Shown piece by piece: positions 25,084 to 36,524 of a stretch of 64,000 nucleotides of DNA (position 1 is its first letter; the number at the start of each line of letters is the position of its first letter). The notes under the pieces were generated by a model. It was not told the origin of the DNA and did no database searches. It saw only the letters and a program-made list of their open reading frames with translations. The position numbers and the translations under genes are program-made. Origin of the DNA: Hymenobacter sp. DG25B (GTDB lineage: Bacteria; Bacteroidota; Bacteroidia; Cytophagales; Hymenobacteraceae). The DNA lies in contig NZ_CP010054.1 of assembly GCF_000801315.1 (NCBI RefSeq), positions 3,038,001 through 3,102,000 on the forward strand, written 5' to 3'.

Positions 25084-25470
25084 AAGAATCGAATCTTAGG
25101 GTAAAGAGAGACACAAATTAGGGCTGAGCTTCCCGTTGTTAGAAGCACCCTAGTACCATTAACTTTGGAGGGTAACAACGAAACAAAGCTCAATACAAAT
25201 ACAAAGGAATGAAGTAAATACATTCTGGACTACCTAAACCCAAAGTACATTAATATAGGTAAGCCTTGAAGTAACATAACCCTTGTAGTCTTAAACTAAA
25301 GCGCCCACGAAAACGAAGGTCCGTGGGCGCTTTATATTTTGGCCATAGCTTGCTGCATAGCTCATTGGCCTTTGGGTCTCCAAGAACAATAGCTGAAAAG
25401 GGAAGAGTTGACAAAGACGCCGGGCGCTTTCCTGGTGGCCGGGCGCGGGCACGGAGAAGTGGTAAAACGA
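25084..25470. other. Intergenic region between BatA gene and rRNA operon end
   Basis: No convincing gene. It contains a perfect 12-bp hairpin, AAAGCGCCCACG (25298-25309) with its complement (25322-25333), followed by TATATTTT, a likely terminator. The rest is AT-rich near the BatA start. The overlapping short frames at 25250-25608 have no domain and run into 5S rRNA. Confidence 0.5.
25298..25333. terminator. Intrinsic terminator-like hairpin downstream of rRNA operon
   Basis: Perfect 12-bp arms with a 12-nt loop. Flanking T/A-rich sequence on both sides could allow termination of transcripts leaving the rRNA operon. Confidence 0.6.
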
Positions 25471-25511
25471 CGATACCCCTCCCGCAGCACAAAGTCGCAG
25501 GAGGGGTATCG
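25471..25511 (-). terminator. rRNA operon terminator hairpin
   Basis: Perfect 12-bp arms (CGATACCCCTCC at 25471-25482, complement at 25500-25511) about 10 bp after the 5S 3' end. On the minus strand TCGTCGTTTT follows, so the T run is interrupted. Confidence 0.6.
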
Positions 25512-25519
25512 AAAAATAA

Positions 25520-25630
25520 GGTTGGCGGCGACCTACTCTCCCGCCGGTGAAGGCAGTACCATGGGCGCTACGGGGCTTAACTGCTCTGTTCGGAATGGGA
25601 AGAGGTGAACACCCGTGCTAAAGCCACCAT
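25520..25630 (-). rRNA. rrf: 5S ribosomal RNA
   Basis: The minus strand reads GGTGGCTTTAGCACGGGTGT, then CCCATTCCGAACAGAGCAG (the conserved loop B/C region of 5S rRNA) and ends GTCGCCGCCAACC. Length is about 111 nt. It lies about 95 bp after the 23S gene and is the last gene of the operon. The ends are placed by the acceptor helix and are accurate to a few bases. Confidence 0.93.
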
Positions 25631-25724
25631 TAAGGTGTCAGTAATACGTGAAACGCAAACTGTCAAATCGTTGACGCAGGTAACGGGTAAGAAAAAGGAG
25701 TTGAGCTTACTGACAAGAAGCGTT

Positions 25725-28625
<2,901 letters not shown>

Positions 28626-28702
28626 CTATTGCTAGAGAGGGCTCGGGTGACTAACCATAGGTTAATCACTCTTTGTTACTTTTTCTTACTCGTTACACTA
28701 CG

Positions 28703-28712
28703 TCAAAGAACG
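28703..28712 (-). promoter_or_regulatory. boxA-like antitermination element before 23S
   Basis: The decamer CGTTCTTTGA (minus strand) lies in the tRNA-23S spacer. An identical decamer lies in the 16S leader (30773-30782). Position and sequence fit rRNA boxA elements bound by NusB/NusE. Confidence 0.55.
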
Positions 28713-28817
28713 TTTGTTTTCCCTATTGGAAAACAACGTAGTACTGTCCTGTTGCCAGAAACACTACTATATGTTGGTATTCTCACCAAAGCTGATCCGA
28801 TTGATCATACTTCTTGT

Positions 28818-28894
28818 TGGTGGAGAATAACGGATTCGAACCGTTGACCCCCTGCGTGCAAGGCAGGTGCTCTAGCCAGCTGAGCTAATCCCCC
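28818..28894 (-). tRNA. tRNA-Ala (anticodon TGC)
   Basis: The minus strand reads GGGGGATTAGCTCAGCTGG at the 5' end, with anticodon loop CTTGCAC giving TGC. The T arm is GGTTCGAATCC, and an encoded CCA follows (28818-28820). Standard cloverleaf of 74 nt plus CCA. It sits between tRNA-Ile and 23S, the usual operon arrangement. Confidence 0.96.
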
Positions 28895-28931
28895 ATTTCC
28901 GTGTTCCGTTGGCAATCCCAACTGTGAACAG

Positions 28932-29005
28932 TGGGCCTGCCTGGACTCGAACCAGGGACCTCTACATTATCAGTGTAGCGCTCTAACCACCTGAGCTACA
29001 AGCCC
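28932..29005 (-). tRNA. tRNA-Ile (anticodon GAT)
   Basis: The minus strand begins GGGCTTGTAGCTCAGGTGG, the anticodon loop CTGATAA gives GAT, and the T arm is GGTTCGAGTCC. The acceptor stem closes with CAGGCCC and discriminator A. CCA is not encoded here, unlike in the neighbouring tRNA-Ala. Located in the 16S-23S spacer. Confidence 0.96.
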
Positions 29006-29110
29006 GGGTTTCGATGAGGGCATCGAATCCGTGAATATCTTGAATGAAGGAATGACAAATTTGATAGTCCAAAGGTAACGCGAGCAATAACTCACGAGTC
29101 GGACCGCTCC

Positions 29111-30626
<1,516 letters not shown>

Positions 30627-30869
30627 AAATTACTTGCTACTCTCTTCGAAAAGAGAGCCATGTCGAGTGCTGATCCGACCCGTATTGACGAGCTATTATT
30701 CGTTTGTTACGCTTGGTTGGTTTTAAAGCCGAAGCTCGAAAACCGCTTACCAAATTTGTCAATTCCAATCATTCAAAGAACGTGTGCTCTCGTCGTTTCG
30801 AGAACCGTGCGCTAGCCAGGCTAGCCGTGTTTTTCATTTCGTTTCCCGGCTTCCGTTCGAAGCGGGATG
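30627..30869 (-). other. 16S rRNA leader
   Basis: Transcribed leader between the nearest promoter and 16S. It contains the boxA-like decamer at 30773-30782, a palindrome GCTAGCCaGGCTAGC at 30811-30825 and a hairpin CTCTCTT/AAGAGAG close to the 16S 5' end (about 30641-30657), which may take part in processing. No gene. Short frames here are not supported. Confidence 0.6.
30773..30782 (-). promoter_or_regulatory. boxA-like antitermination element in 16S leader
   Basis: CGTTCTTTGA on the minus strand, identical to the decamer before 23S (28703-28712). It lies about 145 nt before 16S and after the last promoter. Confidence 0.55.
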
Positions 30870-31397
30870 CAAAGGTAAGTACCTTTTTTGAAGTGACAAG
30901 CGAAAGGCGAAATAATTTTGAAGCTTTCGTTTTCGTCTGCCTGACTTGTTTTCCCCTTCCGTTTGAAGCGGGATGCAAAGGTAAGTAACTTTTCTGCTGC
31001 TTTCCAAATCCGGTTTCGAAGTTTTTTTTCGAAGCGGGTTGGGTTTGTTCAGCTCGAAGCGCTTCCGGTTGAAGCGGGTGGCAAAGGTAAGCCGCTTTTT
31101 TCGTTTCGCAAGCGAAGTGGAAAATTTCTTTTTTGAACTTTTCCGTGCTGCTGGCTGACTTCCGATGGAAGCGGGTGGCAAAGGTAAGGCTTTCTTTTCT
31201 TCGTTTGCAAACCCGAAAACAACTTTTTTTTCGGATCCGGCCCGGCTTCCGGTTGAAGCGGGCTGCAAAGATAGTAGAACCTTTCCCAGATTTCCAACTT
31301 CTTTTTCAAAACTTTCTCCAGCCGCCTCGCAGCTCTTGGCCCCGCCGCGTTCCGGTTTGGGAGTGCAAAAGTGCGACTCTTCTCCTTGATTTCCAAA
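30870..31397 (-). promoter_or_regulatory. Tandem array of five rRNA promoters plus one degenerate copy
   Basis: Five minus-strand units each have a -33 TTG or TTTG, a 19- or 21-bp spacer and a perfect TAnnTTTG -7 box. P1: -7 at 30870-30877, -33 at 30897-30899 (19 bp). P2: 30976-30983, 31005-31008 (21). P3: 31082-31089, 31109-31111 (19). P4: 31179-31186, 31208-31211 (21). P5: 31266-31273, 31295-31297 (21). A sixth, degenerate unit has CACTTTTG at 31366-31373 with TTTG at 31394-31397 (20). The period is 87-106 bp. Each of P1-P5 is followed by a conserved start region of the form CCCGCTTCnnnCGGAAG, which could form a small hairpin at the RNA 5' end. All point to the rRNA operon. Confidence 0.85.
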
Positions 31398-31764
31398 CTC
31401 CCTTCCGAAGAAATCCGAAGTTAGGTTGGCAGGGCTTGACGGGCTTTCGCTACCGCGCTGAGGCCTAACTGTTTGACGGCCTTCTTTAGTTCACCATCTT
31501 TCCAAAAAAACTTTGACCTTTCGCTTATCAACATTGAAAATGCCGCTAACATGGCTCTGAGGTCGATAAACAGACCTTATATAGCATTGCTTAATACAAG
31601 AGATTAAGCGGGCAATACTTCGATTTCCGGTTAACCTATCTACTCTAACTAATAGATAAGCACTCTATCTTCATTAAGGTCCTGCCGTTTATAAGAAGGA
31701 ATTCACCTTATATATAGGGCCGCTTCGCACTCCTTATATATAAGGTGTACATGGAGCTAATGAA
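31398..31764. other. Intergenic region upstream of rRNA promoters
   Basis: No gene seen. At 31704-31747 lies a perfect 13-bp inverted repeat, CACCTTATATATA (31704-31716) with its complement at 31735-31747 and an 18-nt spacer. Each arm belongs to a CCTTATATATA(A/G)GG-like site similar to the one before fur. The rest is AT-rich. Confidence 0.5.
31704..31747. repeat. Perfect 13-bp inverted repeat, AT-rich operator-like
   Basis: Arms CACCTTATATATA and TATATATAAGGTG. The right arm is itself within the perfect palindrome CCTTATATATAAGG. It lies about 310 bp upstream of the most distal rRNA promoter and 20 bp past the purA terminator. Confidence 0.65.
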
Positions 31765-31808: not shown

Positions 31809-33080
31809 TTAGTTAAGATGCAGGGTGCTTACCCTATCTGGTCCGACGCTGACGATACGGATGGGAACATCTAATTGCTGCTCCAAGAACTGGATATAGG
31901 CTTTCAACTCGGCGGGCAGCGCTGCAGGATCGGTGATATCCTGCAGAACGGTACGCCAGCCGGGCATACTTACATATACAGGTGTCATGTATTGTAGTTC
32001 ACCAAAGTCGGGGAAGCGGTCGGTTTGCTGACCATCGGGGGTTTGGTAATGCGTGCAAACCCGGATTTCGTCGAACTCATCGAGTACGTCCGCCTTCATC
32101 AGGTGGATTTCGGTGACGCCGTTTAGCATGATGCTATAGCGTAGGGCGGGCAGATCAATCCAGCCACAGCGGCGCGGCCGGCCGGTGGTAGCGCCAAACT
32201 CGCGGCCAGCTTTGCGAATCTCCTCTCCTACTTCATCCAGCAACTCCGTAGGAAATGGGCCGCTACCTACGCGGGTGCAATAGGCTTTGCTGATGCCGTA
32301 TACCTTATCTATATGGCGCGGGGCAATGCCCAGGCCAGTACAGGCGCCGGCCACAATAGTGCTAGAAGAGGTGACGAAGGGATAAGTGCCGAAATCAATA
32401 TCCAGCAAAGAGCCTTGGGCGCCTTCAGCCAGGATGTTCTTGCCCTCGCTGAGCAGCTTATTTAGTAGATACTCCGTGTCGGTGAGTTGCAGGGTGCGCA
32501 AGAACTCTACGGCAGAGAAGAAATCAGCCTCAAAGGCTTCAATTTCCAGCTCTTTACCGTGGAAAGCGGCCAAGGTAGCGTGGCGGGCTACGGTTTCCTG
32601 ATAGCGCTCCTGAAAATCAGCCAACAGAATATCGCCTACGCGCAGGCCGGTACGACCAATCTTGTCCTGGTACGTGGGGCCGATGCCTTTGAGGGTGGAG
32701 CCAATTTTGCTGCCGCCACGGGCTTCCTCGCTGATGCGGTCTAGGGCGCGGTGCGAGGGCAGAATCAGCTGGGCTTTTTTAGAAACGTAGAGGTTCTGGC
32801 TCCAATCAACGCCCCGGTCGGTGAGCTTTTGCAGCTCCTGCCGGAAAACGGCGGGGTCCAGCACTACGCCGTTGCCGACTACATTAAGGATGTGCGGATG
32901 AAAAATGCCCGATGGAACCTGATGCAGCACATGCTTAATCCCATCGAAGGTGAGCGTGTGGCCGGCATTTGGGCCGCCCTGGAAGCGGGCCACCACATCA
33001 TAGGTGGGCGCTAGTACGTCTACAATTTTACCTTTTCCTTCGTCTCCCCACTGTAATCCGACTAGTACGTCAACTGGCAT
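31809..33080 (-). CDS. purA: Adenylosuccinate synthetase
   Basis: A 423-aa enzyme that joins aspartate to IMP with GTP, committing IMP to AMP synthesis. The N-terminal VDVLVGLQWGDEGKGKIVD contains the IMP/GTP-binding GDEGKGK. GPNAGHTL, the switch-loop region QEGAQGSLLDIDFGTYPFVTSS-like segment (here AEGAQGSLLDIDFGTYPFV) and TTGRPRRCGWID are all intact. Full length, with no odd features. ATG 33080 shares a base with the stop of the upstream STAS gene, so it is translationally coupled to an anti-sigma-antagonist-like gene and fur. A terminator follows directly. Its pathway partner purB lies at 17159. Confidence 0.98.
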   Translation of the reverse strand: MPVDVLVGLQWGDEGKGKIVDVLAPTYDVVARFQGGPNAGHTLTFDGIKHVLHQVPSGIFHPHILNVVGNGVVLDPAVFRQELQKLTDRGVDWSQNLYVSKKAQLILPSHRALDRISEEARGGSKIGSTLKGIGPTYQDKIGRTGLRVGDILLADFQERYQETVARHATLAAFHGKELEIEAFEADFFSAVEFLRTLQLTDTEYLLNKLLSEGKNILAEGAQGSLLDIDFGTYPFVTSSSTIVAGACTGLGIAPRHIDKVYGISKAYCTRVGSGPFPTELLDEVGEEIRKAGREFGATTGRPRRCGWIDLPALRYSIMLNGVTEIHLMKADVLDEFDEIRVCTHYQTPDGQQTDRFPDFGELQYMTPVYVSMPGWRTVLQDITDPAALPAELKAYIQFLEQQLDVPIRIVSVGPDRVSTLHLN

Positions 33081-36385: not shown

Positions 36386-36416
36386 TTTGAATTTCCGACC
36401 AGCTTGCGTAGCTTTG
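36386..36416 (+). promoter_or_regulatory. Promoter for tRNA-Leu
   Basis: TTTG (36386-36389), 19-bp spacer and TAGCTTTG (36409-36416) match the Bacteroidota consensus well. The tRNA starts 27 bp downstream. Confidence 0.7.
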
Positions 36417-36442
36417 CGGCCCCGAGGCAAACGGCCTCGCAC

Positions 36443-36524
36443 GCGGATGTGGCGAAATTGGTAGACGTGCCAGACTTAGGATCTGGTGCCGCAAGGCGTG
36501 TGGGTTCGAGTCCCTCCATCCGCA
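36443..36524 (+). tRNA. tRNA-Leu (anticodon TAG)
   Basis: Begins GCGGATGTGGCGAAATTGG, anticodon loop ACTTAGGAT with TAG, a class II variable arm (TGCCGCAAGGCGT) and T arm GGTTCGAGTCC. The acceptor stem closes with CATCCGC and discriminator A at 36524. CCA is not encoded. 82 nt. Confidence 0.96.

Follow-up and report, generated by a model that had tools for sequence, protein, structure and literature searches.

A tandem array of five predicted sigma-A rRNA promoters upstream of a 16S rRNA gene in Hymenobacter sp. DG25B

The leader of an rRNA operon of Hymenobacter sp. DG25B harbors five sigma-A-type promoter motifs (TTG, 19-21 bp, TAYCTTTG) on the minus strand upstream of the 16S rRNA gene, as recognized by direct reading as well as with a script. 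The best explanation of this arrangement, which is held with a probability of roughly 0.87, is a tandem array of five predicted sigma-A rRNA promoters that loads several polymerases. rRNA transcription sets the growth ceiling of bacteria, and Bacteroidota constitute a dominant phylum of the gut, soil, and sea. The rRNA promoters of this phylum were found to be barely described in the literature searched.

All positions given here refer to the window, i.e., the whole 64-kb stretch of DNA that was analyzed. The 16S rRNA gene is located downstream of the array (29113..30625, minus strand) and is followed by tRNA-Ile, tRNA-Ala, 23S, and 5S, while the next gene upstream of the array is purA (31809-33080, minus strand). 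The unit proximal to 16S, P1 (30845..30922, minus strand), comprises an UP-like tract (30910-30922), TTG (30897-30899), the box TACCTTTG (30870-30877), and a C-rich start region with a hairpin (30845-30866). The box TACCTTTG is also present on the minus strand in P2 (30953..31028; UP-like tract 31016-31028, TTG 31005-31007, box 30976-30983, start hairpin 30953-30972), P3 (31060..31134; UP-like tract 31122-31134, TTG 31109-31111, box 31082-31089, start hairpin 31060-31078), and P4 (31159..31231; UP-like tract 31219-31231, TTG 31208-31210, box 31179-31186, start hairpin 31159-31175). P5 (31241..31318, minus strand; UP-like tract 31306-31318, TTG 31295-31297, start hairpin 31241-31262) carries the box TATCTTTG at 31266-31273. 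From P5 down to P1, the first bases of the -7 boxes on the minus strand are 31273, 31186, 31089, 30983, and 30877, the TTG-to-box spacers are 21, 21, 19, 21, and 19 bp, and the start-to-start distances between consecutive units are 87, 97, 106, and 106 bp. In all the five units, the box is followed by CCCGCTTCnnnCGGAAG.

Dinucleotide shuffles of positions 30700-31460 (n = 20,000) contained a mean of 0.0086 units and a maximum of one, and none contained five. A motif scan over the full window returned four matches on the plus strand and seven on the minus strand, five of the latter being the array; the scan required TTG, and hence the conservation of TTG is partly built into the result. The minus strand of the leader contained no terminator-like site. 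The open frames across the array were short and at odds with the motif structure, and none was accepted as a gene. An earlier, sequence-only reading of this DNA had described five regularly spaced minus-strand promoter motifs directed toward 16S, which the reading and the scan confirmed, and the spacers it gave (19, 21, 19, 21, 21, and 20 in a degenerate unit) were reproduced. Its term "tandem copies" is apt for the motif blocks common to the units, but not for the DNA between the blocks, which is hardly alike.

The degenerate sixth unit, P6 (31340..31396, minus strand), consists of TTG at 31394-31396 and the box CACTTTTG at 31366-31373 with a spacer of 20 bp. The first T of its box is missing, the A-tract/T-run in the UP position is absent from P6, and its start region (TCCCAAACCGGAACGCGGCGGGG) is of a different type from that of P1-P5. 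In type and position, P6 corresponds to the TACTTTTGCACTCCCAA unit that other Hymenobacter leaders carry intact at the distal end, and in six leaders (L017, L018, L024, L026, L061, and L067) the most distal unit is of the CACTCCCAA type, with a spacer of 20 bp and an intact TACTTTTG box. Since its start type and its spacer recur in intact most-distal units elsewhere, P6 most likely represents an old distal promoter, now decayed, and not just a worn copy of its neighbors.

The genome carries two rrn operons, and the second one (L013) bears the same five units. The segment shared by the two (25387..31401, minus strand) is 99.9% identical over 6015 bp, and its upstream end, 31401, falls within the P6 spacer. 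The sixth box CACTTTTG is present in both operons, the TTG being additionally lost in the second. It was also observed that the homogenized segment of the two operons takes in exactly the intact promoters. The unit, which the sequence-only reading had proposed to look for upstream of other rRNA operons, was found at the second operon of the genome and before the rrn operons of relatives, and this recurrence gives comparative support to the designation of the motifs as rRNA promoters.

The frequency of tandem units was evaluated in 27 non-redundant Hymenobacter leaders from 16 genomes, picked by 16S similarity. Strict units numbered 1, 2, 3, 4, and 5 in 2, 7, 8, 6, and 4 of these leaders, respectively, with at least two units in 25 of the 27. 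When the set was extended by another 24 leaders of named records, a biased addition because the motif itself had served to find them, at least two units were present in 48 of 51. The equally biased, motif-found leaders of Pontibacter (4/4) and Pedobacter (2/2) also carried at least two units, while only one of seven leaders belonging to the same order but to other families had at least two strict units, and none of three distant members of the phylum had any. A class sample comprised 96 usable leaders from 48 families, 15 of the 111 leaders having been left out as too short. In this sample, 0, 1, 2, 3, 4, and 5 units were present in 8, 22, 45, 14, 4, and 3 leaders, respectively, i.e., at least two in 66 of 96 leaders and in 32 of the 48 families, with an opposite-strand mean of 0.07. 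These unit counts are lower bounds, as units lacking the exact box or TTG were not counted; leaders without a pattern-found 16S start (L214-L216 and others), near-duplicates, and leaders shorter than 420, 540, or 750 bp, depending on the test, were left out. In named genomes, the exact unit pattern preceded 16S wherever 16S was reachable (59 of 155 matches), the other 96 matches lying less than 1 kb from the end of the available sequence or in one gapped scaffold. With at least two units in most leaders of the 48-family sample (66 of 96), tandem rRNA promoters, judged by sequence, are ordinary in the class, and five units represent the upper end of the range (4/27 Hymenobacter and 3/96 class leaders). 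The earlier view of such an array as unusual for Bacteroidota is thus not supported by the Hymenobacter and class leaders. Five-unit strict arrays were also seen in the class families f28, f65, and f85 (L185, L275, L332, and others), all three distinct from that of DG25B, and the array of L185 shows a near-constant spacing of 106-111 bp.

The -7 box of Bacteroidota sigma-A promoters, TAnnTTTG, was matched by all the five units and missed by one base in the sixth. The -33 element (TTTG/TTG at about 19-21 bp) was likewise present in all five, being part of the scan definition. The -7 box and the spacing range equal those of the sigma-A promoter (-33 TTTG/-7 TAnnTTTG) in the available parts of three reports, which map mRNA promoters and in those parts make no mention of promoters of rRNA, of arrays, or of UP-like tracts and start hairpins (PMC6847099, PMC9723704, PMC7366714). 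According to the available text of one of them, the -33 motif of F. johnsoniae promoters is only weak, and the start lies about 4-5 nt after the box (PMC6847099). By analogy with Flavobacterium, the start sites in the present array would be expected 5-6 nt after the box, which would put them near 30865, 30971, 31077, 31174, and 31261 on the minus strand.

An A-tract/T-run was observed at the expected UP-element position in each of the five units. With positions numbered relative to where the box starts, the frequency of A at -45..-38 and that of T at -37..-33 were 0.67 and 0.58 among 169 Hymenobacter units, 0.61 and 0.51 among class units (n = 42), and 0.75 and 0.60 among the units of this genome, where the A-tract is short in P1 and P5. 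The surroundings in the class sample are also AT-rich (0.70-0.81 vs 0.84), and therefore only the A-then-T order is informative there. As the box spans -12 to -5 according to the accessible sections of two Flavobacterium papers (PMC9723704, PMC6847099), the UP-like tract would lie at about -57 to -45. This is within the range of the UP element of the strong E. coli rRNA promoter, which, in the part of the source available, extends from -60 to -40, with the alpha CTDs at -54 to -48, and is accompanied by a GC-rich discriminator (PMC7822876). The A-then-T order was also found in the tract. The genome encodes an alpha CTD (PF03118 present) with the stretch SVRAYNCLK...KFRNFGKKS. This stretch may correspond to the DNA-contact residues R265, K291, N294, and K298 of E. 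coli, and alpha could contact the UP-like tract. A putative GC-rich discriminator was found as the start CANCCCG in all the five array units, two of which read CCACCCG, and C reached 0.98 in two start-region columns among the 169 Hymenobacter units.

The spacing of the units showed a floor. Among Hymenobacter leaders, 88 of 113 spacings were within 87-115 bp and one was shorter (78 bp); in the class, 70 of 97 were within 80-132 bp and one was shorter (26 bp, probably by chance). The unit length from TTG to the hairpin is only about 55 bp, so that the floor exceeds the needs of the motifs, and it would fit the room required for one polymerase and its upstream contacts. No period of helical phasing stood out among 93 spacings of ≤125 bp, for which the resultant was 0.29-0.30 at every period tried from 10.0 to 11.0 bp.

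The start regions fold as a hairpin at the predicted 5' end, and their own arms pair better than arms swapped between units. The fold excess over shuffles, 4-30 nt past the box, was -3.24 kcal/mol in Hymenobacter and -2.24 kcal/mol in the class. In Hymenobacter, the control stretch +34..+60 was also in excess (-2.14 vs -3.24 for the start region), probably owing to the self-complementary A/T tract of the next unit lying there, and the class sample was used in place of this control for the hairpin test. In an independent class sample (143 units), the excess was -1.77, as compared to -0.41 and -0.61 in two control stretches, and it peaked in windows starting 1-4 nt after the box and faded by nt 13, which indicates that the stem begins at or beside the 5' end of the transcript. 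The 18 strict promoters found before 30 of 43 tRNA genes showed an excess of -1.94 (sem 0.54), the folded stretch often overlapping the tRNA genes; hence, the start hairpin may not be specific to rRNA.

A different function of the start region would be that of a DNA operator, CCCGCTTCnnnCGGAAG being bound by a dimeric regulator overlapping the start and not forming an RNA hairpin. The near-palindromic nature of CCCGCTTCnnnCGGAAG would suit such an operator, as would the arms of the common start type, which barely vary, making the arm swap uninformative for this type (-8.37 vs -8.19). Other start types, however, pair through quite different arms: own arms gave -5.37 and swapped arms -3.90 (sd 0.26) in 67 Hymenobacter units, and the corresponding values were -3.22 and -2.41 in 72 dissimilar class units, with none of 300 swaps as low. 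Swaps in the control stretches shifted the energy in the same direction, but less strongly (13/300 and 2/300), so part of the arm pairing is due to composition. As differing sequences keep pairing, the start region is interpreted, with moderate confidence, as an RNA hairpin, and an operator appears unlikely. The conserved, initially transcribed hairpin of the sequence-only reading is thus upheld by the folding energy and by the pairing of differing arms.

It is also conceivable that P1, perhaps along with P2, is the only unit that fires and that the distal units are decaying relics of rrn duplication or gene conversion. The decayed P6 fits such a history, and P1 was found to be the most uniform unit, with a spacer of 19 bp in 51 of 52 leaders. 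The strict unit count differed among leaders in all ten other genomes with at least two leaders compared (two of the loci given for G023 being one operon), and in four of these (G002, G003, G006, and G026) the difference was plainly one of missing distal units; the two rrn operons of DG25B agree in unit number. Against this, all the five units here retain boxes, TTG, A/T tract, and hairpin despite the diverged intervening DNA, and many species keep their distal units, making loss of function in the distal units quite improbable. As homogenization here stops inside the sixth unit, we suggest that the ends of homogenization tracts may set the promoter number. The sequence-only reading had further considered unequal duplication as the origin of the array. 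The sharing of CATCCCGCTTC by P1 and P2 and of CCACCCGCTTC by P3 and P4 would be in line with one promoter block having recently been duplicated in tandem by unequal exchange. When the motif blocks were masked, and with some of the compared leaders coming from one genome, the mean flank similarity within an array (-0.023; 217 pairs, none above 0.4) was slightly above that of different-rank units across leaders (-0.064; 10411 pairs, 5 above 0.4), whereas same-rank units across leaders gave 0.000 (3568 pairs, 75 above 0.4). Moreover, spacer lengths alternate along the array, and units of equal rank are found again in other species. Since within-array flanks are no more alike than same-rank flanks across leaders, a recent duplication is unsupported and highly improbable as the source of the array, while an ancient one is possible.

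In an array of five rRNA promoters loading several polymerases, the sigma factor would read TAYCTTTG, and TTG weakly. The C-rich start region (CANCCCG) would serve as the GC-rich discriminator, shortening the lifetime of open complexes and rendering them regulable, as in E. coli, and the spacing of 87-106 bp would leave each promoter just enough room for its own polymerase. Several polymerases would be loaded per operon, and their transcripts would continue across all units further downstream and on into 16S. A small hairpin would stand at the head of every primary transcript; it would aid the polymerase in leaving the promoter without backtracking and would protect the 5' end up to the removal of the leader. 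It is most likely that the array lets several polymerases load onto one operon; we infer the simultaneous use of the promoters and the roles of the discriminator and the hairpin. As there are only two rrn operons, promoter stacking may substitute for operon number. The array may also tune rRNA output to growth rate, as the sequence-only reading had proposed.

The P1-P2 region of E. coli rrn operons is not known to have a start hairpin, and it differs from the present array in having two promoters only and -35/-10 boxes. P1 and P2 form a tandem pair according to the text available (PMC5179076). The available portion of a report on the hypervariable multiple promoter region (HMPR) of mycobacterial rrnA describes several tandem housekeeping promoters per operon, with as many as five in M. 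chelonae and a distance of 103 bp separating the starts of P1 and PCL1 in M. kumamotonense, and a promoter number that differs between the operons of one genome, for which gene conversion is invoked (PMC10218544). Similar to the HMPR, multiple tandem promoters, here predicted from sequence, precede one rrn operon, and promoter number varies among the operons of a genome (10/10 other genomes compared). In contrast, the phylum, promoter consensus, and sigma factor are unrelated, and the Hymenobacter units are alike, each with an UP-like tract and a start hairpin, whereas the mycobacterial ones, as far as described in that portion, are distinct promoters with CL1/CL2 motifs. The Hymenobacter array is hence best read as convergent with the mycobacterial multi-promoter regions.

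No description of multiple rRNA promoters in Bacteroidota was found among the literature titles and abstract openings searched, although an earlier one may exist; a 2009 study reportedly addressed the 16S rRNA promoter of B. thetaiotaomicron. Multi-promoter control of rrn operons is already known, and its Bacteroidota form, with alike units bearing UP-like tracts and hairpins, may be new. A broader and tentative proposal, held at somewhat less than even odds, is that Bacteroidia generally start rRNA from tandem UP-equipped sigma-A arrays, that each transcript bears a dedicated, compensatorily kept 5' hairpin for escape or protection, and that promoter number, changed by tract ends, is a heritable dial. 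If true, rRNA promoters would have, in the hairpin, a second component acting at the RNA level and undescribed for other bacteria. The comparison maps the predicted starts, UP-like tract, discriminator, and start hairpin, and offers natural variants whose unit number ranges from one to five, frequently inside one genome, which allow a direct test of promoter number, besides operon number, as a setter of rRNA output. The array units could also serve as strong-promoter designs for Bacteroidota genetics.

Between P1 and 16S, CGTTCTTTGAATG is present at 30770-30782 (minus strand), in letters identical to those in leaders L090, L110, L113, and L122, and we take it to be a sequence resembling the boxA of rRNA antitermination. 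A boxA-like GTTCWT after every unit was considered and rejected, being present in 5 of 164 Hymenobacter units and, in the class, in 18 of 43 as compared to 16 of 43 for the upstream control.

Promoters with C-rich starts were also found elsewhere in the genome. A related start type, TANNTTTGCANNCCC, occurs at seven further sites, of which four are positioned just upstream of the L3 gene, the L31 gene, a Pyr_redox_2 gene, and tRNA-Trp with secE; the Pyr_redox_2 protein looks like a thioredoxin reductase, and the remaining three sites look like chance matches. CA-N-TCCC starts were noted at L198 (ribosomal protein L3), L197 (L31), L196 (thioredoxin-reductase-like), and L199 (tRNA-Trp/secE). CC at nt 4-8 was present in 13 of 18 tRNA promoters as compared to 12 of 36 other genome matches with a spacer of 19 bp, or 12 of 35 without the one that actually precedes a tRNA gene. 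The reversed pattern gave 17 matches vs 46, indicating that many of the non-tRNA matches are due to chance. These small counts are suggestive of a discriminator class common to growth genes. The tRNA-Leu gene at 36443 has a single TTG-19-TAGCTTTG promoter (36409-36443, plus strand) with the start CGGCCCC, which is C-rich like that of the rRNA units.
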